DNA of 64,000 nt. Source: a virus. The stretch lies in IMG/VR virus record IMGVR_UViG_3300004448_000085, positions 17,019-81,018 of that record; one strand, 5' to 3'. Below the pieces are notes generated by a model. That model was not told the origin of the DNA, searched no databases, and saw only the letters and a program-made list of their open reading frames with translations. Positions 2,734-41,564 of this stretch are shown in pieces. The position numbers and the translations under genes are program-made. The first letter of the stretch is position 1. Every line of letters starts with the position of its first letter.

Positions 2734-2918
2734 GGCCCATACCATCCCCAATAGGAAAATCAGTTATTGATATAATGAACAAGGCACAAACCATGATTGA
2801 GCGTATTGATGTTCTTTCTAAAGCAAAGAAGTGCAAAGACTGCGGTGATGGTAAGTGCAACTGCAAAGACTGTCCTGAATGTGGTTCTAAAATGAACAAG
2901 ATGGGTTGCATAAAATGA
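2730..2918 (+). CDS. Small cysteine-rich putative zinc-binding protein
   Basis: A 62-aa protein with an N-terminal helix and a dense cysteine cluster CKDCGDGKCNCKDCPECG, which suggests a compact Zn knuckle or ribbon. The start ATG overlaps the previous stop by ATGA coupling. It is the second metal-binding element near the portal. Function unknown. Confidence 0.6.
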   Translation: MRPIPSPIGKSVIDIMNKAQTMIERIDVLSKAKKCKDCGDGKCNCKDCPECGSKMNKMGCIK

Positions 2919-3637: not shown

Positions 3638-3649
3638 GGGGTGTTTTGA

Positions 3650-21840: not shown

Positions 21841-24800
21841 ATGCCTATCATGTTACAATCCAACCACGCTTTGCTGTTTGATGGTGTAAGCGATGGTGTA
21901 ATTATCCCCCAAGGTAGTTTCAGTAGAATTGGACAAGACTACGATGATACTCACAAGAGTTCTTCTGATGTTATATCTACAAACTACGGTGACGGTGTTA
22001 TCGCTGACGCTTTGGGTGGTGGCCTCGGAATAGAAGCATGGGTAGTCCCTGACTGTGGTGGCGTGATTCTCATGAAAGAGGGTCAATTCAAACTGAGCAT
22101 GGGGACTGTAGACACTCCCGGCCCAATTGAGTTTGAAGCAAACATAGACTCCTCTGTTGGTAAGATGAAAGTATTGCTACGAACAGCCCTACCTGAGACA
22201 AACAACTACGATGGTCATGTATATCCAGTGAACACATTTGGTGGGTTAGATGATTCGTATAACCGCTTTGATGCTGGTAAAGATAAAGCAACATCGTTAT
22301 CACTTAGTCAAAGACCCTTGTATCACATTGTTGTTGGTCTAAACAAAGGTAGTGTTCAAATCTATGTAAACGGGGATTTAGTTGCACAGCAAATGATTCC
22401 CTCTGATGCTAAACTGACTAAAAATAACTCACATGTTTTCATTGGAGGTAAAGGTGGCGACTTTAGAGGTATCATTGAATGCATTCATGTTACTGCTCAG
22501 TTCAATAATGAAATGAAGTCTCGTAACCCTGCGTTAGCGGGAGATAATACAATCTCTCTGTTTAGGTTTGAAGAACCAGTGACTCCGTTGAAAGATGTCT
22601 ACACTATTACCAGCACCTCAGCAGAGAGCAATCTCACTGCCCTTGTTATTGGGTCTACTAACGCACAGGCTTTGGCTAACTCTTTGACTGGGAAAACGGT
22701 CACAGACAGTTCTGTTGATTTTACAGTCTCTCCTTACTCCACTGGTGTGTATTCAGTTATTGACCGATACACAAACCCCGGCACTACACAAAACCATCTC
22801 GTTCCTCATGTTCCTTACAATCTCCTCATTAACCCCGGCTCAATCAATCAGACCACTAAGAAGCCTAATCAAAAACCACCTGAGCGTGTGAGGCTTCATA
22901 GCATAGACATCAACAATGGTAAATTATTGGTGTCAAGTGTCCACTTAGATTTCAAAACAACTACCAATGTAAACGGACTGCGCCCTATTCTTCATTCAAC
23001 TCACATCGCAGGGAACGGGGCAAACTCGTTTGTAGTTATCTCGGCTGACTCTTTAATTGAAAACGGCACAGGTCGGCCTTACCAACCTCCTCATCTTGCT
23101 ACACAACTGATTGATAGAGCAGGTCAAATGTTAATTGACGAAGGTAAGTTTGAGCAACATGCTATGGTGTATTCCAGTCGCATGGCTACAACCACTGTTG
23201 ATACAGAAAACCCATTCGCTGTAGTGTGGCCTACAGACTTAGATGAGTCGTTTCAAGTAGGTCATTCGGGTCGTCACATACTGAACCATGTTGATGGTCA
23301 CCATTACTTGAGAAACATGCCTCGTGCTAATGAAGAAGGACTTGACCAACAGGCTGGTAACTCGGATATTCTAACCTTAATGTATGACGAAAGAACAAGA
23401 GGAATCAAAGATTTATTCCCAATTAACTCAAGAGTAGATTACTACCGTGATGTGGCACAATTTGAAATCACTGATGTGGTGAACTCAAGCGCTGTTCATG
23501 AAGTTGTAAACAACGGACTTAGTGGTGCGAGTAGAAAACTCATATCCATTGGTGGGGTGAGCACAAGTGCTGCTGATTTTGACCCATTCCCATTCCTTCT
23601 CAAAGGGCCAGCACCTTTGACATTAGATGCTATTGATTCTAACCTTCGCAAGTTTCACCTACACCCATCCAGTAAGAGTAGAGTAGCGTTGTTACATGTC
23701 CCTACTCTCGCTACTCGTGGGCTTGCTCCTTATGTTGAAGTTCACTACAACGCTATAGATTTTACAGGTGCTTCAATGAGTAAAACTTCACCTATGCTTA
23801 TGGTGGAAAAAACAGTCCCAGCGAGTAATGTTTCTGTTTCAGGCGGTGGGTATGTTTACGATGACATAGCAACTGATGTTGCTGCTGGTAACGCAACACT
23901 TTACGCCGCTGGTGGTTACATAGATGTTGGTAAATCAAAAGAAGGAAACTTAGGCTCAGTTAATTTCAGTCACTCCCTCGTCGGTGACAACAGCGAAGGA
24001 TTTGAGGCTGATGTTGAATTAGATGAGCGACTCACGCCTCAAAACTTTACAGCCACTGGTGATATTGGTAATAACACACCACAGAATGTCAATGCTTCTC
24101 ATACATCAAAAGCCGACCACGACTCAGTATTTCATCGCCTCTTTATGGAGAGAGTAGAGGTTAAGGGCGGGGCTAACATCACAGAAGAGTTTGCTCGTAG
24201 AGTTCCGCATAAAGTTCAGGGTAGCCCAAGTGCGGGGCAATTTGACGAGGGTATCACTTCTTCAGCCTCTGCTATACATGAGTTCTTTGACATCATTGAC
24301 AATGTTGAAGTTTCAAATCAACTAAGTTCTAATCACCGTTTCTATGTTCAACCCTCTGACAGAAGAAGAACAAACCAACTGCAATATGTTTACTCTACCA
24401 AAGACAGAGAAGAGAGCAATATCGCCTGTGTAATGTTCTTGATGGGTCGCACAAAATTGCGTGGCGTAGAAGAAGTTGAAAGCGATGAAGGTCGTTTTAC
24501 AGCAGTAAACTGCGTAGGACTTTCTGATGTAGCAGCAACCCGTAGCATCAATGAATTAGGCTCAGGTAGCCCTGACTCGCATGTAGTCAAAGAAATAGAC
24601 CCTAACGCCCCTGTGGTGAGTGTAACGCTCGGTGGCGTGGGCCAAGGAGCATTTGACACTAAACCTTCTTTTGACCGCAGCACACTGGCACACCTACCAT
24701 ATAGCACTCGTAGAGGATTCTCATGTCTTGCTACCAAGATAAGAGTAGATAGGAACTCAATTAACAATACTCAATTTATTGAAGTATCGCCTCTAAACAA

Positions 24801-27800
24801 CGAGTCTGAAGATTTGAAAAGTTGGGGGACATATCCATTCCCTGAAATCGGGCGTATATATCTTAAAAATGGAGCAAACGCAGAATACAGTAGTAAAACT
24901 GGTGTTTGCTTTAATTTTGTAGATTCTAACCTTTCAACAAGAAGATACATACTACCAAACAACACCGTAGTGACTACATTCCAAGAGTGGGTTGTTGGTA
25001 GTGGTCTTTGCACCAATGCTAACGCTCTCACTGGGACACAAAATCAAGACTTTCCTCTTGGTGAAGTAATCATGGGAGACGGTCACTTCTTTGTAGAAAA
25101 CCTACAATCAGATGGTAGCACTGTGAATGACAGAATGTTTCAATCAATGGACAATGTATCACATGATTATCAACTTGGCACTCAGTTTGCTTCTACTCGT
25201 GCGTTAGTTGAAATCCCTCTCTTCAAAGGACAGTTCTTTGCTAACAAGTTTGAGAACAGTTACCCCAGCCCCGACAATTCTTTGAAACTACACATTGACC
25301 CTACTATGACGGCTCATACATGGAATCCTTCTCCAGTTGGTCGTAGATACCAAGACCTGCCTCCAGCAGATAGAAGCGCATTTGGTGCTTATGCTAAGAG
25401 CATCCTTACCGACAACAAAAACAATCAATCTAACATTGTCAATTTTGAAACTACCGATGCTGCTTACAAAGTTTATGTAAGCAATCCAAAAGTTTTCCCC
25501 GCTGGTGTAACTACTGGGGCTGTTTACTTCAATGTAGATAATGTAGTGTTGTATCGTAGGGCATTCTTACCTTCGGGAGAGTGGTGTATTTACTCTAACG
25601 ACCCAACTGTAGACGGGTATCTGAATGTAGTAAAACAAACATCTTTTGTTTCTGAAAACTTTGTTAGTGAAATTACAGATAACGGTATTGGTCTACCACT
25701 TTTAATTGGTAATGCATACGACTCAGAAGTTTTAGTTCCTCTAAAGGGTGACGCTCTTAACTCCGCTGCTGACTTTGAAGACAGAAGCGAGTATTACTAT
25801 GACCAAGCGAGTGTGAAAACGCAAGGTGGTAACATTGACTACGGACTACGACAATATGTGAGTGCTGTAGAGTTCAAGGCTGGGCCTCTTTCTAATCCTC
25901 ACGCAGCAAAAACACAAACCCGCAGAGCCAGTGGGACTATTCTCAATGTTGAACCTATTATGAATGGTTCTGTTTACACAGGTTACGCTCACTTAATCAT
26001 GAGTCAAGAAGATGTAGAATTGTTCCCAAATGTAGATAATCCACCTTCGTTTGTTAATGCTGCCTTGTATACTTGGGAGATAGGTCATGCTCATTACACT
26101 TTAGAAGCAGCGGGTAATACCTTTGTCTTCTTCGGAGAAGGTAACAGAGTTAAAGTCGGAGGGGGTATCGCTGCTGATGACAGTTTATCAAGTATCATTG
26201 TTAGGACTAAAGAAAGTTCAACCACCCCATCATACCTTAAAAACGCTACATTGAAGGGGGAACAGGCTGTATTAGTGTCAAAGGGTTTTGATACTCATTT
26301 TGCATCAGATAAATACAACATAGCCTTGAATGACAATCTTAATTTGTCAAACTCAGCAAGACCTCTTCACTACTCTGCTTCTTGGAAAATTACCCAAAGA
26401 CAAAACACAACAGCGTTCACAATAACAACTACTACAAGAAGTGAACTTGTTCAAGCAAACACTCTTCATTTGAATCTTCAAGTTGGAGATTATGTTTACG
26501 CCGAAGAGTGTCGTGGGACAAGTGACTCTATTCGCTCTATTTTGTTAGGTCAAGTAACCGATATTCAAGAGAACGCAGTTCATTTCAATCCAGCCGATGC
26601 GACAGCGGATTCTTGGATTTATCTTGAATCAGCCATTCCAGCCGATAATCAAACAGCGTTTGATGACGCTCTTTCAAATGCAGCAGGTAGTGCTGACATC
26701 AATGTTTTCCTAAGAGTCGGTTGTCAAGACATTATGAAGAATGACGATGCTGCTTTATTAAACAGAACTTGGGTATATCCATTTGCTCAAGGTGGTTTAC
26801 GAAGTGGTGACACAGTTTGGTCAAACATGACTTACAACAACCCACACGCTGTTCAGGGATTATTCGCTAAGAGTAGAGGTGTGTTTAACGAGGCTTTAGT
26901 GTGGCGTGGATTCAACGGTGGTAAAGGATTGCTAAATGATAATCCTCGTGATTCAATACCGCTTGAAAACTTCTTAATTGGGGATTCATGTATAGAGACT
27001 GCTCGTAACTTTGTTCAACATGTCAATAAAACAATTGAACTAAATTACACAAATCTTGGTATTTCTTCTCCACCTAAAGTTGCTTACCTTGACCCATATC
27101 TTGCTACAGAAGGACATGCTCGTGTGCTTCTCTATGATGTAGCACATGACCGTGAGTTCATCGCATTTCAAGATATTCACATGCAAGTTCAAACCTCACC
27201 AAAAGCCGCTGAGTTAGGCTTTGAAAGGCTATCATCGTCACTCAATGTAGCAGATGGAACAGATGAAATTGACTTGGGTAATTATTCAATCAAATACAAC
27301 GGTGGTGCTCAAAACCCATACATTACTCAAATAGATGTAGCAAACGGTTTCCCTTCGCAGAACAAATACATCAGAAGTAATCAACACTCTAACTTCATGG
27401 AGAGTGCTTACGCACACAACTTAGCCAACAGTATGGCAAATGAAATGTTAGAGCCAGTCAAAGGAATAGTAACAAGAATTGAACCATTAGGTGGTAACAA
27501 CATAATGCTGCGACAACAAGGAACTGGTTACCCATCAGGCACAACTACGGGGGTCGCTACTACAAGTATCTCAAGTCCCGGCGCAAGTGGTCTTGTAGTA
27601 ACTATCAGCACTACTCAAGGCCAAATACACACAGTAACAGTTACTGCGGGTGGTAGTGGTTACAAAAACTCAAGAACAAATGCGCCATCTTTAGTTCGTA
27701 TTGGCGGTGGTAACAATGATTGTGTAATGCAGGTATTTACCACTGATACATCTCTAATCAACACACTCACTGCTATGAGTCAAAGCATGATATATGGTAA

Positions 27801-30800
27801 AGCACACGGACATTTTATTCATACTGGTTATCACACTGGTGGGCCTTTGGCTAAGAAAAGAAGCATAGGTGACAGCCTTCTTTCAAGAACAAACAACGCT
27901 ACAGTGATTCCTTACTATGCTAACAAAGTTCATCAGCAAACAAGAAAGTTGTTTTCTTCTAACAACGAATTGGTTAAGGCTTTAATGCAGCATCGTGTAA
28001 AATTACCAAAGGTTCTGACTCTTAAAGCAGGTGGGGCTACATACAATAACGGTGATTTCAGGAATGTAAGAACAACTACTGACGGTAAAGGTAGCGGTAT
28101 GACCGTAAATGTAACAATAAGCGGTAACGCAGTTGCGAGTGCCACAGTAAATCGTCAGGGAGACAGTCTGTATAAAAACGGAGATACAATCTTTATCGGT
28201 GACAGAGGTATCAATGTTTTACCTACTGCTACCGCAACAGTAGGTGGTGACGGGCTTGGTAGTTTTGCTTTAGCCATTAACAACACCAATGAAGAAATAT
28301 CTACATTGTTTGATACTCCTGATGGAACTCGTGTAATACCCGCTTTCCTTGCGTTAAAGGGTATACGCTCTGAGACTCTTGACTTATCATCACATGATGA
28401 AACAAGATTAAAACATCTACCTCATTGGAATCAGATGGACTTTACTCGTAGATTAACTATTGACCTCGGTGAAGTTGCTGTAAAAGATGGTATTACAAAT
28501 GTAGAAGCGGCTGCTAATGAAGTAGTGAGAATGATTAACCAAGCGGGTGCAAAGAAAGGGCGCACACACTCTGCGAGAAACAATAAGCAATACCCAGTAA
28601 GAGTAGTTGGTGAATCTGATTTTGCAGCAACTGGTTCAACGCATGACCCTGCTGTATGGTGGGATGAAGACAAAGCCTTCGCTTCACATGACAAAGGAAC
28701 ACACATGGGATATGTTCGTGCTCACATAGGTAGAGTTGTTCAAGACGCTGATGGTAACGAAGAAGGGTTCTCAATTATTATTCACAGCACAGTTCCGGGT
28801 GCTACTGGTCGTAACTTCGCTGTTTGGTTAGACAACAGTAAGGGACAAGTGCCTTACAAACCTGAGTTCCTTATTGGTCACGGTGGGCGCTTCAGAACAT
28901 TTTGGTGTATGCCTAACGAACTTAGCGGAGAAAACATGCACCCTGCACCTATGCCGTTGAATAAACACGGTAGACCTTTTGCACCTATTACATCTCTTAA
29001 CCAGTATACATTCCCCGACGAATCTACTCAAAGAGTGGTGTCAGTTGCTGATTTTGCGAATAATGATAGCAATTCAATCACACCAAAACTAAGAGCAGTA
29101 TCGGCTATGAGTGGTGCAGGTCAATCACACAATACCCTAAACACAGAATCTTTAGAGATTAAAGGTCACAATAGTTCTTTTACTCAAGGTCTACGAACAG
29201 GAACACACGCTATAGCGAGAATGAACTTTGGTGGAATAGTCTCAGCGGGTATACCGGGTTTTGCCCCCGATGCTGGTAACTGGGGCTTTGGTAGAAAGGG
29301 AGATACTCGCTTTACAAATGATTATGGAAAACTGACTAAGATTTCATACACAGAACCACCGTCTACATACACTGGTCATGTGCCTACAAAAGACACATTC
29401 CCCGATAACATAGGAGAATCTTCAATTTATGGTCTACAACTCAAAGACCACAGAGGAGAGGCACATGGTATCAGGTATATTTACAAAAATATGGGTGAAG
29501 ATTTCACTTTAGACAACACCAACTTACCTCAAACTCTTGACAATGAAATAGCAATTTTCTTTAATCACAAAGACTGCACTCAGGGCGGATTCACCATAGG
29601 AAAACACATGCATGGTATCAGCGACCCTACAGGTAGATTCCCCGGTATACCTGATAACGCAGCATTGGCTAACTGGCAAGGTAACCTATGGAGAGGCGCA
29701 CCTGCTCCTAACGCTTCTTACAACACGGATGTAGTCTATGACCGAAGTGCTCAGACACTGACTGTTACCCCGTATGCTCCTTACGATGCATGTCCTCATC
29801 ACGATGTTTTGGGTTACATGGGTTTCCCCGCTGAGAACGGTGTCATTCATCTTTCCGACCCTTACAACGATATGGGAACTGCTACTGTCACAGCAGGTGG
29901 GACTGGTTACACACCCAATCAAACAAATGTTGCGGGAACTGCTGTGGGTGGTAGTGGTAGCGGGATGACTTTGTTAGTAACTACTCATGCTTCTAACGCT
30001 ATTGTAACAGCGGTTACAATCACATCTCTTGGTGAAGGAGGTTACCTCCATGGTGAAACCTTGTCAGTAACAAGTGCGGGTGGTGTAAATGCTGAGTTTA
30101 CACTTGATACTCCTCTCATGGGTAACTGGGGTAACATGCTTAGTTACACCCACCGAACAAAAAATGACATTACCGGGACTCATGTATTTCATGGAGTAAC
30201 TGGAGATACATACATTTCAAAACATCGTATTCACACTCACAGCAACACTGCACCAAAAATTGAGCGTGGAACTTTCATAGTAGGTGAAACAACTGAGGCT
30301 ACATCGGCGCTCATCACCCCTGTTGCTAACTGGACTACTCTCGTAACAGACGAGTTGATGGCCGCTGTTACTGAGTTTGCTATCAATTTATCAGACCCTA
30401 ACAAGCCCGAAGGCCATTTCTTTGATTGCACTGAGATGTATGCCTCAGACGGTAAAACATTTGGAGAATGGGGTCTTACAGAAGAGTCAATTAAAGTTCG
30501 TGCTTACAACACTAAAAACAACATTCAACCAATATCGGATTTCTTCTCCGCCTCATTATCTCAAGATATGGGAATCAAAGCAAGTCACATTGAATATGGA
30601 GAAGTCCAAAGCGTAGCATACACAAACAATGGCGTAGTGATAAGTGGAGACGGCACACGACCAGTAAGTGATGATTTGATTGAAGATGGTAGAAGTGTAG
30701 CCTGTGGTTACATCCCTTCTACTGTTTTACAAATTGCTACTAAAGGAAAAGGGTTCAACGCTAACAGCGCTACACCTAACATTGTAGATTCTGAAAATAA

Positions 30801-33800
30801 CCCAATTGATACCGAGACATGGCGTAAGAACTTAATTGGTGAAAACTTCACTGAAAATAGCGGTGACTTAATTCTACCAAATCTTGACAATCCTACACTT
30901 CACATGAGTAACATTCATTCTTCTTCTATGATGTTTACTCATACCACTAAAGAAATATGGCATTTTTGTAAACCCGCTGGCTATGAGACTACAGTTGTTC
31001 ACAACGAAAACGGACAAAGTTACGACTACACACGAATAGACTCTTTCGGAAACAGAACACCTATCACTTACGGTATGGAAACGGCGATTGTAGAAAGTCA
31101 AAATCTAAACTCCGGTGGCGATGTTTCGGAAAGAACATTCAAACAACTTACCGATGCAAACTTAAGAAGTGAAGACTGGCCTTCATCAGCCCCAAGCGAG
31201 ACAACATTTATTATCCAAAAATACGCTGATAAAAAAGCGTATTTGTTTGCGGGTAAGCGCTCTTTGGGTAGCGTTCATTCTCAACCAATCATACACTTTA
31301 CAGGCGCTCGTGATAGCCCTGACAATTATGTGCCACTTTACTTTGGTGGTGGCTTTAGCGGTGCTACAATAGACATCAATGATGGGACTAAGAATGATTA
31401 CTCTGAACATAATACTCACCCATACGCCAATGGCCCAACAGGTTCAGCGGGTATTCAAAACGCCAACGAGATTTTGTCATCATTCTCTACCTTAGACTGC
31501 AACGCTATCATGGCCTTTTTCCCTGCTACTGCTTTGTTAAACCAGCATCGTGGTAGTATCAATCCACCAGTTTACAACAAGGATAACATATTGTCTTCTG
31601 ACATCAAGCGTGGAGCACATACTCCAAGCAACATACATCCTGATGCTGCTCCATATACTGCTGGAGTTCACATGCAAGTGCCATCTCCTATGGTAGTGCG
31701 GTTCGCACATCCTACTGCTCGGTATAACGACCATCGTGATGGTATAGAAAACAAGACAACCTACATTATCTTCGGGCCGGGGCAAGCATTCCCACTCACA
31801 CGAGAGGTAGCGTCTCCAATTAACACCTTTGAGCCGCATCCGGGTCACGCCATAAGCACTGGTAATACATGGTCAAAAGTTCCTAACATGACGAGTAGTA
31901 GACCGTTCTTACCAAATCACATTCAAAATAGCACAGGTGAGTATATGCCTGAGCGTGCTGCTACACAATTGGCTAAACACCGTTTCCACTATCGTCAAGT
32001 GCTAAACTGGGAAGCACCAGTCGGTATACCCGACACTGTATTTTTGAGAGAGCGACCTGAAACTGGGCGAAACTATGGTAACTCATTTACACACCAAGCA
32101 TTTAATTTCTACACTACAGCAAGTAATTTTTCAGATGATGTTGCTAAAGCCTATGCTGTTACACAACCAAGTCGCCATGCCATGTTCTATGGTGGTGGTA
32201 TGGTAAAGAATGCAGACTTGTGTTGGCACATGGATAACGGTAATCACCCCGGCGGTTCGTGGATGGATAATCAAATTACCATGAACCCACCAAGAGAAAG
32301 TGATAGCCTACGAGTAGCACTTGCGTCTGCTACCACTCAGATTAACAAAACTGCGTTTAGAGTTGCGGGAACTGTGGCTACAAGAATGCTTTACTCTAAC
32401 GATGACTCTAATTCACCTAACTTCGCAGCAGAAACATTAGTTCATGGTGATGTAGACCACGAATACATCATAGTAGATGCCACTCGCTGTCAAAACGGAG
32501 AAGAGTTGGCTTGCCTCTTCGGTGCAGCCATCAATACATTCCCCGGTAAAGGCGCACTGAAAGCCATTGGTGGGACATTCATGCCATCTATGGGTAACTC
32601 ATCTCGTCAAGACCGCTATGGTTGGATTAAGGCTCTTTCAACAGCAATTCCAGCAACTGCTACAAACTCGTTTACGGGTCTTGTGTATGGTAATAAGCAA
32701 ACCGCTGTTGATGGAATCACAGGTCATGCTAATGTTGGAGATTATGGTTATTCAAATCAATTTGTGTCAAATACCCCACAAGTAACGGCCAGCGCTCCCA
32801 GCAAATTAGGCGACTGTTTTATTGACTTGAGAATTGATGGGCTACTCACTTTGGGTGCTAAGTCGTTGGCTAATCGTATACCTGCATCGGGTTGGTTAAG
32901 AACAGAAGCAGAGCACGCTTACGGAGGTAGTGTTGATGCTGCTGTTAAATCATCAGCATGGAGTCCTTATCACAGTCGTGTTTTCTACGCCAACGGTGAT
33001 GATTTGTATGCAAGATTTTACCTTGCTAACAATAAAAATACTGGATTAAAAGCGTTTGAAAGTGGAGAGACTTGGAGAACATACGCATTAAACGCTGCTG
33101 CCTTAAATGCTGGTGGTGGGTCAAACATCGCAGGTGTAACCCTACCACACCCTGCTCCTTCTTTGAACAGCGAAGTATGGATTTGGAGTAAAGCACCTAC
33201 TATTTTCGTAGATAACTCAGGTGGTAACAGATTTTCAACTAAGGGTATAGGAGCACCTCACTTCAGTGGACTTGCTGACGCTATAGACAGAACAAAACCA
33301 GTAGGTGTTGTAGGATGGCATGGTGAGCGTTATTCACATCTTAATTCTTTACAAGTGACTGGAGGTGGAACTACAAGTTTCAGTGCAGGGCTTGGTGCAT
33401 GGCACTCAATGTTAGGTTTCTCTCCTTACGGTGGGTCGTCATCCTGTGCTACTATTCTTTCTCACTTACCACATATTACACCGTTACCAAACTCTCCTGA
33501 GAGTATGCCTCCTACGGATATTCCGGGTCGCAGTCTTACTAATTTTCCAAGCGCTGATGATGGGGAGTCAGACAATCCTTCTTGGGGTGCTGACGACTCA
33601 GTTGCATTCGGAACTTATGTTGTAGGATGGGCTGATGGTGCTCAGTATAACAATCCACCAACAATGAGGAATACACCTGAGTTACAGAAAGAACTTGTAA
33701 ACCCACAAGGAACATACGCCCGTTCTCTATTAGTGGTAGCACATGAAGGCGAACTTAGCCTGATAGCAAGAAAGGATAGAAACTCATACACGACTACTGG

Positions 33801-36800
33801 TGACTATCTTCTCGCTGGAGGAACAACACAGTGGGATGAAAGATTTCACAATCAAGACCGCTTTATCGCACCAGCAAACGCAGGGCCAAACATTGAGGCT
33901 TTGATTGTTGATAATACATCTCTCCCTACTGTGGCTAATTATGCAGCAGATGGAGGATTAGATGCTGCTCCTTTCAATGCTCAAATACAATTACACGGCT
34001 CAATTTCAGCAGATACGGCTTTGTCTAACGCTGAGCCATGTCGTGCTGAGATAGGTGACTTGTTCTTTGACATTGATAAAAATGTAGGAATTGTAAATCA
34101 CGAATCAGACATAGGTAAGCGTAACCTTTCTACTGATTTTATTACAAGTAGCCCGAATCCAAGTGGAACTATGACTACTAACGATACGCAGTCGCAGATA
34201 TTTTGGGCTGGTGATGTCAATGCTTACGATGTATTGAAGCGTAGTCCTCACAAAAACTTCAGCACCGAACATGTAGTTTGGAAAAGAATGGATGGTGGTA
34301 GTCTCACTTTACCTGCGTCTAACGCTCGTGGTTTAGGCGCAGTGCCGTGGGTAACTCGTGTAGTAGGTGATAACGCCCACACAATGGGTGAGAAACTCTA
34401 TGGGAATGTCAGGTTCTCTTTTGAAACAACAAACTCCGCTATGATGCCTATTCTACAGGCTCAAGAGATTGCTCATCCTCAGTTAGCAAAAGAGCATCCT
34501 ATCGCCTTGCATGGTGTGTTAGAGATTCCTAACGAAGACATTCAGTTTGAAGACATCACAGTAGTAGATGACACAGGGCAAATCCATACTTTAGAAGGTG
34601 GCTCACCGTTAGGTGTTGTCATACGAGCATATAGACCAGCATCAAAGCGTTCAGCAAGTGGTCTACAACCAACACCAGCAAACAGCGGATTTGGGCCTAA
34701 CCTTGAGATTCAACTACCTGACCCCGATAGCATCCCCGGTAACATATTGATTCGCAGTGGATTTGACTCTATTCAAGCCTATCAAAACGAAACCATAGGA
34801 GACGGTGGTATGATTCACCCCGACTTGGGTGCAACACACCTCGGTCACCTCTTTGACAATGTGATAAAAGGGCCAAGAAAAGGGCCAACAATGAACGAAG
34901 TTGGATGGGAGCACATATCTCAAGGAGAATCATTCCCTGATTCTACTCGTGACGGTTGGGTAGAAGGAACTGCTAACAACACACTTCGTAGTTCATACGA
35001 GCAACAAGACAGAGCGTTGTATTTTCATATTACTAAGATGGGTCACACTCACACAGAGAAGTTCCCTACGACTTACACTCACGCCGCTGGTGTAGTCAAT
35101 CAACCTTACACATTCAGTAGTTTAGTAGGCACAACTTTGACTGCTAATACTACAATTGTCCTTAGAGATGATGCTGCATCCCCTACGCCTACTGCGTGTA
35201 TATTTGATGCTGGGTTTGGGACTCAAGAAGTTCTTGATGAGGGTAGTGGTAAGCGTCGTAGATTCCTCCGTATAGCAAACCCAGCAGGTGAAAGCGTTGT
35301 CGTTTCATATCTTGATATTGTCGGCGCTACATTTACTGGAGTAGTTGGGGATATTGACACTGCTCAATTCCTTGCCGACAATGCTAACACTACTCTCACC
35401 ATCACTCCATCATACTATGTCCCTGCTGGTAGCACTCGCATATTTGCAGCACGCCGTTTGCGTGACCACGCTGAAGTGAGTGGTAACAGTCCTGATATGG
35501 CTCACACAGAATACTTTACTGGTGATTCACAAACGACTATTCACTCAAGATACAGTAGACCACAACTCACTCCTATGCCTATACCTCGTATGGGTCATCA
35601 CTTCGTCAATGCTACTATGCCTATGATGCCGGGTCATTGGGCGCACCCTTCGTATCAAGGGCTTTACGAAAGGAGTAACTCTGACAAACTTGCTAAGTTG
35701 CGTGATGAAGATTATACGACACTGGCTACTCATCTTGAAGAAGTAGACGGGACAACGAACAATCAAACAACAGTTAGTTCCGCTGTAACTAAGCGTATTT
35801 TCCCTCTTAACCCATCATTGAGAGTTGGTTCGCTAACTGCTAACCCATCAGGGCCAAGTGATATTCACGGTGGAGGATTTACTCTGATGTTTGAGACTAA
35901 AATCAAGTATGATGGTTACGGTATACTCGCATCAAAAGGTGATGCTGGGGGCATAAACAAGGCTGGTGGTCATTCCATTGTCCTTGAGGCCGCTGCTAAC
36001 TACACTCAGACTAATCATTTCCCCGACCCTGCCGAAGTAGGAGCATATCAAATTGTTATTCAACCAAACCTTCGCCCTCATCAAGTCGCTGGTTTCCATT
36101 TGAATAACTCTTCAGTAACTACTCTACCGGATTCTACTCCCGCAAACAATGTCTCTGCTCTTACTGCTCAGCAAGTCAATCTCGTCGTGGGTATAAAATA
36201 TGACGAAGAACGACACGCATCACTAACAAATGCTGCAAATGTAGGAGCAGTAACACTCGTCTTAGCAGAAGCAACAATTGCTGATGTAAGGGGTTGTGAG
36301 ATATTCCTCAACGAAGTGATTCTTGACCACGAGCCTGACCACGGTAGCCAGTTCACCAATGTCCCACCGATGCTGCTTTATAATCCACTTGGGGTTCAGG
36401 GTAGTGAAAGTCCTTCGTTTACTCGTAGAGGTCACCCATACCATCCTACTACATCTGAAATTACATTCAAAGACGCTACACCGGGGCATACTACAAGCAT
36501 TCCTTGGTGGAGTATCATGCACAAAGACACACCGAATGAACCAAGTTCTGTAGGATTTAGACATCTCGCTCTGTATCGTATTGATAATTACTACGAGTTT
36601 TGCCGAGCAAGTTATGGAGCAGTCGCTGCTCAACTTACTCTCGCTGGCTACCCAAGCATCTACCCCGACATCTACTCTAAGATTATGGAGAATGTTAGCC
36701 TAACCCCGACTTGTAAAGTTGTAGGGACACACTCTTCTACAAATGCTATACAAGTTGATGATGCTTCACTGTTCCCTGAAATACCGTATTACAATCAAAA

Positions 36801-39800
36801 ACTACAGTATATTGACGATGCATCGGGGGAAACTGTATCGTTTAGTTACACAACCCGGCAAGGTTTGACTCATAGTTCGGCAACTATGAATGAGCCTGAT
36901 ATTTTCCATCTCCCAGCAAACGCCACTATTCCTGACGGGACAAAACTCACTTTGTCCAAACCATACTCTACAAAACCAATGAGCGACTTATTCAACAAAG
37001 ACAGCGAGAGTATCTTGACTAAGAATCTTGGACAGACTCTACCCGGAACACGAGACACTAACAGCCTGTTCTTAGGCGATGCATACCTATGTGCTTGGAG
37101 TCCTAATTTGGGTAGACCACATACTTTCTATTCCGATGCGAGTAGAACATGGATTACTGATAATGTAAATCACACCGCTGACAGAGCAGTAAACAAAGCA
37201 GCATACAACAGTATGCCTCAACATTTTGAAACAATTCACTACCACGAAGTAAACTACGCAGCGAGTCATGGGCCGTTTGCTTTGAAGATGAAAACACCTG
37301 TCCCCCCTGAACCATTACCGGGTTACATAGCGAGTCACAACGGTGCTACTCCTACAGTGATAACAATGTCTCAGACAGTTACTGGTGTTACTCAAGGTGA
37401 GATTATCTACAGCGAAGGCCGAGTTCTTGGTAAAGTAAACATTGTTTCAACAAACACAATAACACTATTCACAAAAATACTTGAGACGAACATACCTGTT
37501 GGTGCTGCTACTAACAAGGTGTATGTCCGAGGTAAAGGTATCATTGACACTGCTGCTAATATCCATGCTATGAGTAACTTTTCAGCACAAGGCGGGACAA
37601 GCGCCATGCTCACTAACTTTTGGCCTTGCGGTAGTCGTGGTGGGCCTTTGGTAAGCCGTTTAGATGGGTATGCTATGACATCGGCAGCGTGGCATTTACC
37701 TCAAAGTTACGCTCATGCTGGTGCTACTCAATGGTATGATTCTGATGACGATAGCACCCCTGCTAATTATGCAGCATCAGGTGGGATAGCGACTGCTGCT
37801 TTAAGTTCTACAAGACCATATCCATTCGGTTATCGTTTCGGTCTAAGACAACCGTGGAACAGACCTCAATGGGGTCACTATGGTATGCGAGCATACCAAG
37901 AACATGCTACTCATAATGGGGCGAGCGACTTCGCAGTTGGTTACAAGGCTGGGCCTCTTGTAGAATACGAATCACAAAATTGGATTTACGCTGGGGCGCA
38001 GCCGGGACAAGGCACAAAGGAATTACCCACAACCTATGTTGGTATTCTTGAGCGTCATACTACCGCTGCTGGTATGCTAAACGCAGACAAATACGAGAAT
38101 CAAGTTCGTTACAGCGATGGGCGAAGAATGACAAGAGGATTTGGATGTGCTATACGCACTATTCGTAACGCTTCTACTGTCATCAGAGACTGGTGGGGAG
38201 ACTCTGCTGGTAAGGGTCTAAGTGATTACAAAGATGCAGTTTCGTATTACCTCGTGGACTGGTGGGGTAACACTCGTGGTGAAGATGTTAGGCGTATGCC
38301 TGTTCGCAGTTTTGGTATCAACCCTTCTTGGGATGCTGGGGATGTCTATGAATATGACAGAACCAACAGTAGAACTCCATACGCACGAATATGGAATAAT
38401 AACAAACCTATCTTTAATCTAAAAGGTATCGCTGCTGACTCAGATACATCAACGGGTGATGTTTTGACTTCTCCTACCGCTACGATACCAAGATTCGGTG
38501 GTCGTAAAAACACTGGTAACAACAACAAAGGCAGTTTACTTGTAGATGTGTTTGCTCCTACCAATGCTTTGCGTGTGGGTGATATGGGTAATGGTCGTGG
38601 TGTGAGATACCCTACTCAATTTAATGAAGACATTCTTGTTGAACTAAGCGCTGTATACGAAAATGCAGGTGTAGTGCTTTCAGGTAACACGGCAGAGCCT
38701 ACATTTGGTGAAGGTTTGATACGCCCAAGAGACGACGCACTCCAACCTACTGAAATTGTTAGAGGTATCAGTAGCCGATTAGAAATTGACGAAGACGGTT
38801 TGTTGAAGCCCGAAGCCACTGTGAGTGATAAAGTAGAGACAGTTAGCGGAGTATCGGTGCATAAGGATGCTATCTCACGGTCTTCACCAAGAATTGGTAT
38901 AGATGGAGAAACGCTTGAGTCGCTAACTGGTAGCGATAGTAACATGGTTGCTATCAACTCAGAGGCGCACAGTCTACACACTAACAGAGGTGTAGGTCAG
39001 CGTGTGATTCTACATGGTGGTATGCAGTCAGGCTCTCAAACTCTTGGTGATTACGACCTAACATCACTATCCTTTGCTGCTCAACCTCATGGTGGTGTTA
39101 TGCGGTTTAGCCATACGAGTAACTTCAAACCCATGGGTGGTAACTACATCTTAGAATGTCGTAGTTTTGCTAATCCGTTTAACGACTTAGGATGGGGTAG
39201 GAGTGGAACTCTTGGGTCAAACAAGACAAGCAATCCATATCAAACGACCACTCTTAACCCAACCTCGGCTCAAACAAACAAAACTGATGACGCTGTTAAG
39301 TTCCTTGTTCGCCCTGTTCGTTTGCTTGACAATCAACACATCGCTGTGTTTAGACCTCAACTGGCGTTACACAGCGGGAGTAAACAGTTTGGTAGCACTG
39401 CTTACACAGCAACCGCTGGTGGTAAATACGGACTATATACTTACGAAACTCCGAGTGGTCGTGCTGCAAGCGGCTCATACATGCGTGCTACTAACCCTAA
39501 CACATCAGCACCATATCAACCAGTTTACCTTATTGAGTCCAGTAGCGATACAGTCCCTACATCTAAAGGGCCAAAACTACCGGGAACTGAGGTTACTGGG
39601 TTTGATAAAACAACACTCAAGTCAAGTGTAACGAGACTGGTTATCAGCGAAAACACACTGCAACATTACAGAAGTGATGCTCCAAGAAGAACTGGTCAAG
39701 GTAAAGACTACACAGTGAAACCAAGGTTTAGTCAATCGCTTCACGGTAAGGGGCATAAAGAAGATGTGTCGTTTAATACATCAGACCACAGTGGTGATGC

Positions 39801-39804
39801 ATGA
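21841..39804 (+). CDS. Giant 5,987-aa tail-associated protein
   Basis: One uninterrupted frame of 17,964 bp. Residues ~1-240 contain a LamG/ConA-like jelly roll (GGLGIEAWVVPDCGGVILMK, SLSQRPLYHIVVGLNKG, then a QIYVNGDLV strand). A second LamG-like unit lies at ~4670-4920 (GFTLMFETKIKYDGYGILAS ... VGFRHLALYRIDNYYEF). Three Gly/Thr-rich modules like the one in the tail tube lie at about 1893-1960, 2058-2140 and 2680-2757. The rest is beta-rich, with many Asn, Gly, Thr, His and Tyr and no long coiled coil or transmembrane segment. Position in the tail tip gene cluster and LamG modules point to a host-binding tail fibre or baseplate protein. The ATG follows GAGGTGAAAA. Nothing suggests frameshift or decay. 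Confidence 0.75.
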   Translation: MPIMLQSNHALLFDGVSDGVIIPQGSFSRIGQDYDDTHKSSSDVISTNYGDGVIADALGGGLGIEAWVVPDCGGVILMKEGQFKLSMGTVDTPGPIEFEANIDSSVGKMKVLLRTALPETNNYDGHVYPVNTFGGLDDSYNRFDAGKDKATSLSLSQRPLYHIVVGLNKGSVQIYVNGDLVAQQMIPSDAKLTKNNSHVFIGGKGGDFRGIIECIHVTAQFNNEMKSRNPALAGDNTISLFRFEEPVTPLKDVYTITSTSAESNLTALVIGSTNAQALANSLTGKTVTDSSVDFTVSPYSTGVYSVIDRYTNPGTTQNHLVPHVPYNLLINPGSINQTTKKPNQKPPERVRLHSIDINNGKLLVSSVHLDFKTTTNVNGLRPILHSTHIAGNGANSFVVISADSLIENGTGRPYQPPHLATQLIDRAGQMLIDEGKFEQHAMVYSSRMATTTVDTENPFAVVWPTDLDESFQVGHSGRHILNHVDGHHYLRNMPRANEEGLDQQAGNSDILTLMYDERTRGIKDLFPINSRVDYYRDVAQFEITDVVNSSAVHEVVNNGLSGASRKLISIGGVSTSAADFDPFPFLLKGPAPLTLDAIDSNLRKFHLHPSSKSRVALLHVPTLATRGLAPYVEVHYNAIDFTGASMSKTSPMLMVEKTVPASNVSVSGGGYVYDDIATDVAAGNATLYAAGGYIDVGKSKEGNLGSVNFSHSLVGDNSEGFEADVELDERLTPQNFTATGDIGNNTPQNVNASHTSKADHDSVFHRLFMERVEVKGGANITEEFARRVPHKVQGSPSAGQFDEGITSSASAIHEFFDIIDNVEVSNQLSSNHRFYVQPSDRRRTNQLQYVYSTKDREESNIACVMFLMGRTKLRGVEEVESDEGRFTAVNCVGLSDVAATRSINELGSGSPDSHVVKEIDPNAPVVSVTLGGVGQGAFDTKPSFDRSTLAHLPYSTRRGFSCLATKIRVDRNSINNTQFIEVSPLNNESEDLKSWGTYPFPEIGRIYLKNGANAEYSSKTGVCFNFVDSNLSTRRYILPNNTVVTTFQEWVVGSGLCTNANALTGTQNQDFPLGEVIMGDGHFFVENLQSDGSTVNDRMFQSMDNVSHDYQLGTQFASTRALVEIPLFKGQFFANKFENSYPSPDNSLKLHIDPTMTAHTWNPSPVGRRYQDLPPADRSAFGAYAKSILTDNKNNQSNIVNFETTDAAYKVYVSNPKVFPAGVTTGAVYFNVDNVVLYRRAFLPSGEWCIYSNDPTVDGYLNVVKQTSFVSENFVSEITDNGIGLPLLIGNAYDSEVLVPLKGDALNSAADFEDRSEYYYDQASVKTQGGNIDYGLRQYVSAVEFKAGPLSNPHAAKTQTRRASGTILNVEPIMNGSVYTGYAHLIMSQEDVELFPNVDNPPSFVNAALYTWEIGHAHYTLEAAGNTFVFFGEGNRVKVGGGIAADDSLSSIIVRTKESSTTPSYLKNATLKGEQAVLVSKGFDTHFASDKYNIALNDNLNLSNSARPLHYSASWKITQRQNTTAFTITTTTRSELVQANTLHLNLQVGDYVYAEECRGTSDSIRSILLGQVTDIQENAVHFNPADATADSWIYLESAIPADNQTAFDDALSNAAGSADINVFLRVGCQDIMKNDDAALLNRTWVYPFAQGGLRSGDTVWSNMTYNNPHAVQGLFAKSRGVFNEALVWRGFNGGKGLLNDNPRDSIPLENFLIGDSCIETARNFVQHVNKTIELNYTNLGISSPPKVAYLDPYLATEGHARVLLYDVAHDREFIAFQDIHMQVQTSPKAAELGFERLSSSLNVADGTDEIDLGNYSIKYNGGAQNPYITQIDVANGFPSQNKYIRSNQHSNFMESAYAHNLANSMANEMLEPVKGIVTRIEPLGGNNIMLRQQGTGYPSGTTTGVATTSISSPGASGLVVTISTTQGQIHTVTVTAGGSGYKNSRTNAPSLVRIGGGNNDCVMQVFTTDTSLINTLTAMSQSMIYGKAHGHFIHTGYHTGGPLAKKRSIGDSLLSRTNNATVIPYYANKVHQQTRKLFSSNNELVKALMQHRVKLPKVLTLKAGGATYNNGDFRNVRTTTDGKGSGMTVNVTISGNAVASATVNRQGDSLYKNGDTIFIGDRGINVLPTATATVGGDGLGSFALAINNTNEEISTLFDTPDGTRVIPAFLALKGIRSETLDLSSHDETRLKHLPHWNQMDFTRRLTIDLGEVAVKDGITNVEAAANEVVRMINQAGAKKGRTHSARNNKQYPVRVVGESDFAATGSTHDPAVWWDEDKAFASHDKGTHMGYVRAHIGRVVQDADGNEEGFSIIIHSTVPGATGRNFAVWLDNSKGQVPYKPEFLIGHGGRFRTFWCMPNELSGENMHPAPMPLNKHGRPFAPITSLNQYTFPDESTQRVVSVADFANNDSNSITPKLRAVSAMSGAGQSHNTLNTESLEIKGHNSSFTQGLRTGTHAIARMNFGGIVSAGIPGFAPDAGNWGFGRKGDTRFTNDYGKLTKISYTEPPSTYTGHVPTKDTFPDNIGESSIYGLQLKDHRGEAHGIRYIYKNMGEDFTLDNTNLPQTLDNEIAIFFNHKDCTQGGFTIGKHMHGISDPTGRFPGIPDNAALANWQGNLWRGAPAPNASYNTDVVYDRSAQTLTVTPYAPYDACPHHDVLGYMGFPAENGVIHLSDPYNDMGTATVTAGGTGYTPNQTNVAGTAVGGSGSGMTLLVTTHASNAIVTAVTITSLGEGGYLHGETLSVTSAGGVNAEFTLDTPLMGNWGNMLSYTHRTKNDITGTHVFHGVTGDTYISKHRIHTHSNTAPKIERGTFIVGETTEATSALITPVANWTTLVTDELMAAVTEFAINLSDPNKPEGHFFDCTEMYASDGKTFGEWGLTEESIKVRAYNTKNNIQPISDFFSASLSQDMGIKASHIEYGEVQSVAYTNNGVVISGDGTRPVSDDLIEDGRSVACGYIPSTVLQIATKGKGFNANSATPNIVDSENNPIDTETWRKNLIGENFTENSGDLILPNLDNPTLHMSNIHSSSMMFTHTTKEIWHFCKPAGYETTVVHNENGQSYDYTRIDSFGNRTPITYGMETAIVESQNLNSGGDVSERTFKQLTDANLRSEDWPSSAPSETTFIIQKYADKKAYLFAGKRSLGSVHSQPIIHFTGARDSPDNYVPLYFGGGFSGATIDINDGTKNDYSEHNTHPYANGPTGSAGIQNANEILSSFSTLDCNAIMAFFPATALLNQHRGSINPPVYNKDNILSSDIKRGAHTPSNIHPDAAPYTAGVHMQVPSPMVVRFAHPTARYNDHRDGIENKTTYIIFGPGQAFPLTREVASPINTFEPHPGHAISTGNTWSKVPNMTSSRPFLPNHIQNSTGEYMPERAATQLAKHRFHYRQVLNWEAPVGIPDTVFLRERPETGRNYGNSFTHQAFNFYTTASNFSDDVAKAYAVTQPSRHAMFYGGGMVKNADLCWHMDNGNHPGGSWMDNQITMNPPRESDSLRVALASATTQINKTAFRVAGTVATRMLYSNDDSNSPNFAAETLVHGDVDHEYIIVDATRCQNGEELACLFGAAINTFPGKGALKAIGGTFMPSMGNSSRQDRYGWIKALSTAIPATATNSFTGLVYGNKQTAVDGITGHANVGDYGYSNQFVSNTPQVTASAPSKLGDCFIDLRIDGLLTLGAKSLANRIPASGWLRTEAEHAYGGSVDAAVKSSAWSPYHSRVFYANGDDLYARFYLANNKNTGLKAFESGETWRTYALNAAALNAGGGSNIAGVTLPHPAPSLNSEVWIWSKAPTIFVDNSGGNRFSTKGIGAPHFSGLADAIDRTKPVGVVGWHGERYSHLNSLQVTGGGTTSFSAGLGAWHSMLGFSPYGGSSSCATILSHLPHITPLPNSPESMPPTDIPGRSLTNFPSADDGESDNPSWGADDSVAFGTYVVGWADGAQYNNPPTMRNTPELQKELVNPQGTYARSLLVVAHEGELSLIARKDRNSYTTTGDYLLAGGTTQWDERFHNQDRFIAPANAGPNIEALIVDNTSLPTVANYAADGGLDAAPFNAQIQLHGSISADTALSNAEPCRAEIGDLFFDIDKNVGIVNHESDIGKRNLSTDFITSSPNPSGTMTTNDTQSQIFWAGDVNAYDVLKRSPHKNFSTEHVVWKRMDGGSLTLPASNARGLGAVPWVTRVVGDNAHTMGEKLYGNVRFSFETTNSAMMPILQAQEIAHPQLAKEHPIALHGVLEIPNEDIQFEDITVVDDTGQIHTLEGGSPLGVVIRAYRPASKRSASGLQPTPANSGFGPNLEIQLPDPDSIPGNILIRSGFDSIQAYQNETIGDGGMIHPDLGATHLGHLFDNVIKGPRKGPTMNEVGWEHISQGESFPDSTRDGWVEGTANNTLRSSYEQQDRALYFHITKMGHTHTEKFPTTYTHAAGVVNQPYTFSSLVGTTLTANTTIVLRDDAASPTPTACIFDAGFGTQEVLDEGSGKRRRFLRIANPAGESVVVSYLDIVGATFTGVVGDIDTAQFLADNANTTLTITPSYYVPAGSTRIFAARRLRDHAEVSGNSPDMAHTEYFTGDSQTTIHSRYSRPQLTPMPIPRMGHHFVNATMPMMPGHWAHPSYQGLYERSNSDKLAKLRDEDYTTLATHLEEVDGTTNNQTTVSSAVTKRIFPLNPSLRVGSLTANPSGPSDIHGGGFTLMFETKIKYDGYGILASKGDAGGINKAGGHSIVLEAAANYTQTNHFPDPAEVGAYQIVIQPNLRPHQVAGFHLNNSSVTTLPDSTPANNVSALTAQQVNLVVGIKYDEERHASLTNAANVGAVTLVLAEATIADVRGCEIFLNEVILDHEPDHGSQFTNVPPMLLYNPLGVQGSESPSFTRRGHPYHPTTSEITFKDATPGHTTSIPWWSIMHKDTPNEPSSVGFRHLALYRIDNYYEFCRASYGAVAAQLTLAGYPSIYPDIYSKIMENVSLTPTCKVVGTHSSTNAIQVDDASLFPEIPYYNQKLQYIDDASGETVSFSYTTRQGLTHSSATMNEPDIFHLPANATIPDGTKLTLSKPYSTKPMSDLFNKDSESILTKNLGQTLPGTRDTNSLFLGDAYLCAWSPNLGRPHTFYSDASRTWITDNVNHTADRAVNKAAYNSMPQHFETIHYHEVNYAASHGPFALKMKTPVPPEPLPGYIASHNGATPTVITMSQTVTGVTQGEIIYSEGRVLGKVNIVSTNTITLFTKILETNIPVGAATNKVYVRGKGIIDTAANIHAMSNFSAQGGTSAMLTNFWPCGSRGGPLVSRLDGYAMTSAAWHLPQSYAHAGATQWYDSDDDSTPANYAASGGIATAALSSTRPYPFGYRFGLRQPWNRPQWGHYGMRAYQEHATHNGASDFAVGYKAGPLVEYESQNWIYAGAQPGQGTKELPTTYVGILERHTTAAGMLNADKYENQVRYSDGRRMTRGFGCAIRTIRNASTVIRDWWGDSAGKGLSDYKDAVSYYLVDWWGNTRGEDVRRMPVRSFGINPSWDAGDVYEYDRTNSRTPYARIWNNNKPIFNLKGIAADSDTSTGDVLTSPTATIPRFGGRKNTGNNNKGSLLVDVFAPTNALRVGDMGNGRGVRYPTQFNEDILVELSAVYENAGVVLSGNTAEPTFGEGLIRPRDDALQPTEIVRGISSRLEIDEDGLLKPEATVSDKVETVSGVSVHKDAISRSSPRIGIDGETLESLTGSDSNMVAINSEAHSLHTNRGVGQRVILHGGMQSGSQTLGDYDLTSLSFAAQPHGGVMRFSHTSNFKPMGGNYILECRSFANPFNDLGWGRSGTLGSNKTSNPYQTTTLNPTSAQTNKTDDAVKFLVRPVRLLDNQHIAVFRPQLALHSGSKQFGSTAYTATAGGKYGLYTYETPSGRAASGSYMRATNPNTSAPYQPVYLIESSSDTVPTSKGPKLPGTEVTGFDKTTLKSSVTRLVISENTLQHYRSDAPRRTGQGKDYTVKPRFSQSLHGKGHKEDVSFNTSDHSGDA

Positions 39805-41219
39805 TGCCGCTTCTTAGTTACAGACGAGTCAGCACTGATAACCCGGTGATTATGAAATCTATTCGTAAACCTAAGTTCGTAGATAATGCACTCTACCTTG
39901 GTGAGTATACTGCACAAAGCGATGTGCTAAACAAGGTCACTGTAAAACAGCGCAAGACTGCAACTTACGGTGTTGCTACTTCTCGTGCTTACGACATTAC
40001 TGAGTTACAAGACAGTATGATACTCAAGCAACCTCAAACCCATGGTAGTAACTATCAAGGCTCTGTAGTTTATATGGGGTCGGCAATCACAAGCGATGCG
40101 AATAAGAATAAACCAGTTCTGTTGTATGCTAAAAACGCTACACACGAAAGGCTTCGCCCGTCATCAGTGATGAACAGTGGAGTAGGGACTACTTTCGCTG
40201 TGAAGAATACCAAATCAAAGTCATTTGAAAAACTTGGATTCTCTGCTACTCAAGGACACATAGGACACCCAATTGATGCTGGCTTAAGAACCACGGACTT
40301 GGCTATTCGTTTGAGTAGAGATATTGCTGACTCTTTGACATCAGTGAATATCGCCTTACCAATGAGCGCAAGTAACTCAGAGGTAGACAGGAGAAGACAT
40401 AGCCACGCATTCCTCGGTGCTGATTTTCACGGCATCACTTTGGTAGACGCTTTGCGCTTTATCAGTAGACACGATGGTAGAGTGATTCACTTTGACAGAT
40501 TTGGTAATCTTCTTTATGTTCCGTTCCAATTTGAAGAAGGTAGTAGATTCATAGACCATAACGCACGCACTGGGCCAGCCGTATCAAATCCAATTGAGAA
40601 CATTTCTAACAGAGTGATTGTAGAAGGGTTACCCACTGCTGTGAACGACACTGCATTTGCCGAAGTAAACAACTCTGAAAAACAAACAAGTGGAGATGTG
40701 TTAGAAGAACCACAAGTAGTTGGTGACTTCACTGTTCGTAGTAACGAGCAAGCAAGGGAGATAGGTCGTAACATTCTCAAGGCAAACGCAGTCATGCTTG
40801 GTAATTTAACAAGCGCTGGTCACCCTAATGCGTGGGATTTGCGACCCGGTATGGTGATTGAATACAACGGTGAGCGTAAGATTCTCATTGAAGTGAGACA
40901 TAGAATGGCTCAAAACGCAACTGACCTTGTTTTCCTTAGCGTAGAAAGCGGGGTAGAAGGGGTCTTACAGGGCATTCTCCAAGGCACTAAGAACACAGGG
41001 GCGCAAGAAGATACCATACAACAAATTGTTGAGAAAAATATGGCCTTGTTTGGTGACATAGAAATCATATCAGTAATCATAACAGAAGTCCAAGGACACG
41101 GAACTTCAGGCGATGGTTTCATCATAGGGAGAGGCATGGGTAGAGGTGTGGTCGGTGCTGCTACTGGTGAAACAGTCGGCGGTAGCAAAACAGCAAAGAT
41201 AACACAGAGGGGTGATTAA
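39801..41219 (+). CDS. Putative tail hub/baseplate protein (gpD-like)
   Basis: A 472-aa protein; ATG overlaps the stop of the giant gene. The region at about residues 200-395 (FHGITLVDALRFISRHDGRV, RFGNLLYVPF, SNRVIVEGLP, then WDLRPGMVIEYNG) resembles the late-control D/hub domain of tail-tip complexes, including the WDLRPGM...Y strand found in that family. The C-terminus is Gly-rich. It likely forms the hub beneath the giant fibre protein. Confidence 0.5.
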   Translation: MMPLLSYRRVSTDNPVIMKSIRKPKFVDNALYLGEYTAQSDVLNKVTVKQRKTATYGVATSRAYDITELQDSMILKQPQTHGSNYQGSVVYMGSAITSDANKNKPVLLYAKNATHERLRPSSVMNSGVGTTFAVKNTKSKSFEKLGFSATQGHIGHPIDAGLRTTDLAIRLSRDIADSLTSVNIALPMSASNSEVDRRRHSHAFLGADFHGITLVDALRFISRHDGRVIHFDRFGNLLYVPFQFEEGSRFIDHNARTGPAVSNPIENISNRVIVEGLPTAVNDTAFAEVNNSEKQTSGDVLEEPQVVGDFTVRSNEQAREIGRNILKANAVMLGNLTSAGHPNAWDLRPGMVIEYNGERKILIEVRHRMAQNATDLVFLSVESGVEGVLQGILQGTKNTGAQEDTIQQIVEKNMALFGDIEIISVIITEVQGHGTSGDGFIIGRGMGRGVVGAATGETVGGSKTAKITQRGD

Positions 41220-41564
41220 ATGCCAGTATCAAATCATGTAAGACGGTTACTCATTGATACTATTGCTAACAACATCAATGAGATGGTTGTCGGTTTTGAC
41301 GGTAGCCCTGCTACGAAAAGTGACGGCGCTGCTGGTAGACCTGCACAAATTATCAATCCTACTACTCGTATAGTGAGTGATTCAGCACTCTTAGTTGAAG
41401 GGTTCATACCAGCCACAGAGTCTTTTAATGAGAATCTAAAGGAGGTTTTCATACAGTTTAGAGGAGCACTTAGCACAATACCAATTGCTCGTCACACAAT
41501 CGCATCGTTTAATAAAACAACATCAAACGAGATACGAATACAGATACTAATTGAGGTGAAATAA
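41220..41564 (+). CDS. Small conserved-looking tail protein
   Basis: A 114-aa alpha/beta protein that starts one base after the previous stop and overlaps the next gene start. Strands such as RIVSDSALLVEGFIP and EIRIQILIEVK suggest a compact beta domain. Likely a baseplate or fibre-attachment component by context; not recognised. Confidence 0.5.
   Translation: MPVSNHVRRLLIDTIANNINEMVVGFDGSPATKSDGAAGRPAQIINPTTRIVSDSALLVEGFIPATESFNENLKEVFIQFRGALSTIPIARHTIASFNKTTSNEIRIQILIEVK

Follow-up and report, generated by a model that had tools for sequence, protein, structure and literature searches.

Magroviruses (Magrovirales) have genomes of ~103 kb that encode a family B DNA polymerase (PolB) and a chaperonin, and in which the tailed-virus genes for head and tail run opposite to the replication module (PMC12999244, PMC10768690). 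In the available part of a third report, all 18 genomes of the clade 1 magroviruses contain a thermosome (PMC5332604). The accessible portions of these three papers name tail fiber, baseplate and tail genes, and no giant tail-tip gene is named in those portions. For Haloferax tailed virus 1 (HFTV1), the accessible text describes a trimeric hub with tail fibers attached to the N terminus of each subunit; the hub has 953 residues in the PDB entry, the fiber is a separate homotrimer, and no giant protein is described in that text (PMC12494034). Haloarcula tailed virus HVTV-1 (Druskaviridae), whose major capsid protein is 33% identical to that of the virus analyzed here, likewise has its tape measure before the tip genes but no giant gene: its genes 132–138, which follow the tape measure, encode proteins of 151–524 aa, and a LamG-like sequence, read by eye, is located in a separate gene (gene 137). 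The siphophage tail-tip proteins lambda gpJ and T5 pb3 contain the same hub fold that we predict for the neighbor of the giant protein described below, and in these proteins the tip extension is part of the hub chain; the matched chains are of fewer than 1,000 residues, in contrast to the 5,987 aa of the giant.

Here, we analyzed a 64,000-nt window (bases 17019–81018 of an 81,018-base virus record), in which a gene on the + strand, at 21841–39804, encodes a putative tail-tip protein of 5,987 aa (~649 kDa) with known homologs. As judged from sequence, the gene content of the window is that of a magrovirus, a tailed virus of Poseidoniales archaea. The portal, protease and capsid proteins match PHROGs head families, and the major capsid and portal proteins are related by sequence to those of tailed archaeal viruses, with 32–33% identity between the capsid and haloarchaeal virus proteins in tblastn. 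Genes for the family B polymerase, a PD-(D/E)XK nuclease and an ERCC4 nuclease are on the strand opposite the virion module. Between portal and protease, positions 3650–9079 encode a 1,809-aa protein with 4.9% histidine and a weak PHROGs match; a large HVTV-1 gene annotated as zeta toxin precedes the protease of that virus and is like 3650–9079 by position only.

The tail genes, all on the + strand, encode, in order, the tube, the tape measure, a conserved protein starting at 20545, the giant, a hub, a 114-aa protein and a fiber. The tail-tube-like protein (15845–18073), identified by Pfam and blastp, contains a Phage_tube_2 domain and one copy of a module that it shares with the giant. It is followed by a tape-measure-like protein of 438 aa (19232–20548, PHROGs) and by the protein located between tape measure and giant (20545–21831), which is recognized by its homologs. 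Downstream of the giant are the predicted central tail hub of 472 aa (39801–41219), whose start overlaps the giant's stop, the small conserved 114-aa tail-module protein (41220–41564, again with homologs) and a variable fiber-like protein of 775 aa (41564–43891). The same order is kept by the homologs in three records with a fused giant (G002, G006 and G010) and in one in which the giant is split (G012).

An earlier sequence-only reading had described the giant gene as a single intact frame of 17,964 bp that takes 28% of the window, and both statements hold. The frame starts with an ATG at 21841 and runs through 5,987 codons without an internal stop to the stop codon ending at 39804; the calculated mass of the product is 649 kDa, and the gene would take up ~17% of a genome of ~103 kb. 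Over the same DNA the longest open stretches are 146 and 61 codons in the other two forward frames and 145 on the reverse strand, and the longest open frame in 50 single-base shuffles of the stretch was 204 codons. There are no N bases in the 64,000-nt window, and no tandem array was found inside the gene. We also considered a repeat-built giant adhesin and rejected it, as the protein shows no tandem sequence repeats and only three short modules recur. A separate assembly of a near-identical virus (record G003, 103,294 bp) has its contig break inside the giant gene; identity to the window is 99.5% and 99.8% at its two ends, but window positions 32481–33273 (793 bases of the giant) are not covered, and it therefore provides support for the frame rather than a full second copy. 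In each of two comparisons, every one of the twelve 500-aa windows of the giant gave a dN/dS of 0.05–0.20, figures that are rough because dS exceeded 1 (saturated) throughout. The giant is under purifying selection.

A search for homologs in related virus genomes, which the same reading had proposed, recovered the whole one-frame giant repeatedly. Counting frame lengths from the previous stop, a giant of 5,221–6,140 aa in one frame was found in 22 of the 32 related virus records searched. With the last third of the protein as query, 13 of 13 records matched, 10 of them with one frame of 5,390–6,071 aa; the other three were G003, which is cut by contig ends, and G012 and G013, which have the split form. 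With the middle part, 18 of 19 further records matched, 12 with one frame of 5,221–6,140 aa. Shorter frames were seen in this search in G016, G017, G024, G027 and G030, which we take to be cut by contig ends, with G030 also interrupted, while G032 belongs to the split lineage. A scan with residues 1–1000 of the giant gave 36 loci. In a further scan, with a conserved core (aa 2160–2400), 343 related stretches were found in viral contigs and 80 were kept; 10 of these, all on contigs other than the 32 records, contain a complete giant frame of 5,173–5,366 aa that aligns with known homologs over their whole length, from N to C terminus. Sequence edges are reached on at least one side by 69 of the 80 core-scan loci, and among the eight with a stop at the right end alone, seven finish at the giant's own C terminus, the exception being L216, which has an early interruption. 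Finally, a scan with the hub found 245 loci, of which 80 were kept, 73 including a piece of the giant and 7 having none in the available sequence; the piece is uninterrupted as far as available in 71 of the 73 (the exceptions are L138 and L140), with the limit that the scans overlap, some of the viruses are near-identical and some samples are perhaps reassemblies, such that the loci are not all independent.

The four interruptions, in L138, L140, L216 and G030, are probable frameshifts as judged from sequence; in L216, homology runs on across the frame break. They bear on the question of whether the long frame could be an assembly artifact, as they show that single contigs can be interrupted, though none was found in the window. 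The frame of more than 5,000 aa recurs on separate contigs in the 22 records and 10 loci above, and the giant lacks repeats, which argues against an artifact; misassembly of the giant frame is thus very unlikely.

The window protein and nine full-length homologs align end to end, with conservation at both termini and over most of the chain. Within the chain, variable islands at approximately aa 1401–1600, 1901–2100, 2701–2800 and 3601–3700 alternate with conserved blocks, and in some 100-aa islands the identity is 7–20% in distant homologs. The last 1,000 residues show 48–74% identity over 52 homologs. Close to the N terminus, residues 150–217 (22288–22491) form a candidate LamG/concanavalin-like module that matches Pfam Laminin_G_3 with an E value of 8.8e-6, just below the curated cutoff, and Laminin_G_3 was found at E ≤ 0.1 in eight of nine homologous N-terminal thirds (best 5.3e-7). 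The sequence-only reading had counted two LamG-like units. The N-terminal one is supported by these matches, but Pfam did not confirm a second: neither the middle third nor the last third of the window protein gave a match, nor did aa 4600–4940, the likeliest place for it, and a second LamG was rejected because Pfam found none outside the N-terminal third. In the available part of PMC10160649, Laminin_G_3 is reported as an "auxiliary metabolic gene" in four magrovirus groups; some of these assignments may correspond to the putative virion protein described here instead of to a metabolic gene.

Additional blocks are inserted toward the C terminus of some homologs. A block of 171–174 aa is present near aa 5788 (between 39205 and 39206) in 5 of 27 aligned homologs, and one of 151 aa near aa 5446 in 2 of the 27 aligned rows. 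The G006 block near aa 5788 has a weak LamG match (E 5e-4) that is wholly inside the block and hence in sequence absent from the window, while Pfam found no LamG in the L116 and L135 blocks at this site; among the extra blocks tested for LamG, that of L044 was positive and those of L102, L116 and L135 gave no match.

The giant was also said to contain three modules shared with the tail tube. Three copies are indeed present, at aa 1886–1971 (27496–27753), 2058–2121 (28012–28203) and 2680–2755 (29878–30105), but only two are tied directly to the tube protein. In blastp, the tube-like protein matched the first and third copies (aa 1888–1971 and 2682–2755), which are also supported by profile comparison; the second copy is linked by profile likeness to copies 1 and 3 and was not matched directly to the tube protein. 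Beyond these modules, the sole PHROGs match for residues 1–2000 was phrog_438, a baseplate wedge family (E 0.0055). The last two thirds of the giant had no PHROGs match, each third had no match in NCBIfam, and residues 1–3000 and 3001–5987 had none among INPHARED phages. Comparison with solved structures by sequence gave nothing credible (one chance match, E 0.14). Prediction of the fold of the last 1,038 residues yielded no usable model, and because of its mean pLDDT of 35.8 it lends no support to the shape of the scaffold that we propose below.

Insight into how the protein is built comes from a distant sister lineage, in which three genes, here termed a, b and c, take the giant's place in the same order. 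Such homologs, which the sequence-only reading had named as a finding that would count against the single frame, reveal the construction of the protein and do not falsify the frame. The three-gene form was found on five contigs (G012, G013, L155, L157 and L162), among which L157 contains just the end of a and L155 is very similar to G012. The products of the three G012 genes are of 925, 1,779 and 3,125 aa, and their blastp matches fall, patchily, in window residues 1–272, 412–3223 and 4144–5971, respectively. The first split boundary thus maps to a zone at aa 273–411 (22657–23073), between the blastp ends of G012 a and b, and the second, between b and c, to aa 3224–4138 (31510–34254) by comparison with the split lineage. 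The conserved core of module b (aa 2160–2400, 28318–29040) is kept in this lineage. Profile comparison of the split genes with the window recovered a and b with probabilities of 99.6 and 100 but did not recover c, which matches the window in few blastp stretches, the best with an E value of 8e-21 over ~108 residues. The a–b junction in G012 and G013 is TGATG, a normal coupled gene boundary, and in L162 the start is just behind the stop. At the start of gene b, G012 has a proline/glutamate-rich repeat stretch (L036:12766–13000) that G013 does not have.

The boundaries between the genes have moved within this lineage. In L161, a and b are fused in one frame of 2,199 aa and c is separate, while contig 3300030060_003308 (L160) contains c as two overlapping pieces. 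In all four complete c genes (G012, G013, L157 and L162), c ends in a hub domain homologous to the protein encoded at 39801–41219. A tree of the tube protein places L161 basal to the three-gene group (96/95) with the fused group as their sister, which hints that the a–b boundary is a later split; the hint depends on a small number of rows and on an outgroup with a very long branch, and the program issued a warning about meeting long branches. Taken at the level of sequence, the giant chain would unite modules a, b and c, which are separate coupled genes in the sister lineage.

That a, b and c can be separate chains, as the split lineage shows, also raises the question of whether the giant is made as a polyprotein and then cleaved to yield a-, b- and c-like pieces; a head-maturation-protease-like protein is encoded at 9121–10479. 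In the split lineage, a LamG domain stands at the end of b (E 9.1e-8 in G012 and 2.3e-11 in L162), and Pfam found no such domain in the second or last third of the window protein. The pieces therefore end differently from the fused chain, and we consider processing of this kind quite improbable.

The gene that follows the giant encodes the predicted hub. Its structure was modeled as a single chain from 31 sequences with middling confidence (mean pLDDT 57, pTM 0.42). In Foldseek, the top 45 PDB matches are all tail or injection-system hubs, VgrG spikes or tip proteins; E is ≤0.001 for 43 of these, and the whole-chain TM-scores are low (0.25–0.32). VIA Z values reached 11.5 over ~200 residues (~158–384), with 10.6 for the phage Mu hub, 10.6 for lambda gpJ and 9.6 for the HFTV1 hub, compared with 6.5 for the first unrelated chain. 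Hence, within the middling confidence of the model, 39801–41219 is predicted to carry the gp27/gp44/gpJ hub fold. By sequence the likeness is faint: a profile of the hub gave weak matches to solved structures, among them the Chi tail protein (E 0.26), its best match of 28 in HVTV-1, gene 133, was too weak to use, and the Pfam hub family YQBQ matched in the split lineage at E 0.061. A scan of cellular genomes with the hub gave 216 pattern matches, none of which was confirmed as a relative, and no link to a host emerged from it.

The sequence-only reading had also proposed a probable key role in host recognition or tail structure, and the genetic context supports the structural part: the giant gene follows the tape measure, its stop overlaps the start of the predicted hub, and its last module is fused to the hub in the sister lineage. 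A virion location has to be weighed against the alternative that the giant has its role inside infected cells or at their surface, since other sequence often separates it from the hub. Indeed, more than 50 bases, and up to 2.9 kb, are found between giant and hub in 42 of 73 relatives, so the two genes need not adjoin. The gap is variable, and in several relatives it contains unidentified frames (e.g., L109:7229–9814 and L111:7885–9974). In each of the four complete cases the last module is joined to the hub, and the giant gene stands among tail genes; both observations argue against a nonvirion protein, which we view as highly improbable. The c–hub fusion of the split lineage, at the hub's N terminus, suggests instead where in the virion a giant would sit and in what number. 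In the accessible description of HFTV1, fibers attach to the hub N terminus (PMC12494034), the end at which module c is joined by fusion in the split lineage. The giant's C-terminal end would thus sit at the hub's N terminus. Hubs are trimeric in other tailed viruses as well; as the sister lineage makes c and hub as a single chain, a trimeric hub would probably mean three giant chains per virion, ~1.9 MDa in all, a 3:3 ratio of giant to hub that derives from one fusion in one lineage.

Which protein selects the host is best considered together with the fiber-like protein at 41564–43891. Among 61 homologs of this protein, ranging from 374 to 1,199 aa, mean identity declines from 62% to 8% along the length (with unaligned positions counted as different), a constant N-terminal part being followed by a variable C-terminal part in the classic fiber pattern. 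The protein has no family match and is named a fiber because of this variation pattern. In L243, two further large unidentified genes follow the fiber-like gene.

The sequence-only reading had favored a role of the giant in host recognition, and one could argue that it determines host range as the main receptor-binding protein: it has a LamG-like N-terminal module, the extra block of one homolog has a weak LamG match, the chain contains variable islands, and the gene occupies a tail position. But the two termini and most of the chain are conserved against the nine full-length homologs, dN/dS is 0.05–0.20 at the 500-aa scale, and the adjoining fiber is far more variable in both identity and length. 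A role in host recognition is partly supported, in that the giant carries a lectin-like module, and the variable islands inside the chain could still touch the host, but a giant that decides host range seems unlikely, and 41564–43891 is, from its sequence, the clearer host-range candidate. We favor, with somewhat better than even confidence, the reading that the giant is a hub-anchored tail-tip (baseplate) scaffold with lectin-like modules and that a separate fiber picks the host. In this magrovirus-like tailed archaeal virus, the giant would be a structural protein of the tail tip into which LamG and other small modules plug at several sites; the plugged-in lectin-like modules would touch glycans of the archaeal surface, and the variable fiber would choose the host. 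Narrow word searches of the open-access literature on magroviruses, giant phage proteins and archaeal-virus Laminin_G_3 returned no description of the giant, which may be drawn or named in other magrovirus papers; we regard it as a tail-tip protein of a known kind rather than of a new kind.

A thermosome-type (group II) chaperonin is encoded on the – strand at 45429–46949, at the border of the virion and replication modules. Its Pfam match is above the cutoff, and NCBIfam thermosome models score 384–409 bits, compared with 77 for the GroEL equivalog, with the thermosome scores falling below the curated cutoffs. When 20 chosen records were searched with PF00118, 16 of 17 fused-giant records matched and none of three split records did, with six of the fused records (G033–G035, G037, G039 and G040) called from partial frames and two (G000 and G003) representing near-identical viruses. 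The one fused-giant record without a match, G011, ends before the gene's place. In the split records G012, G013 and G036, the place between the fiber and the homolog of 47803 is present and carries other genes; these records are fragments, and the chaperonin could therefore lie elsewhere. The difference between fused and split forms amounts to a single contrast on the tree and could be coincidental. The idea that three 649-kDa chains make up a tip of ~2 MDa, and that the chaperonin was gained or kept to fold the fused giant, is accordingly one to which we give little credence.

Together, these viruses present a natural fused and split series of one tail-tip string: a, b and c+hub as three genes, a+b followed by c, and a+b+c followed by a separate hub. 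Such a series lets contacts and copy numbers be predicted for viruses that are known from metagenomes only. The separate variable fiber provides a host-range gene to study, and the possible link to the chaperonin offers a testable reason for the presence of a chaperonin in ocean viruses.
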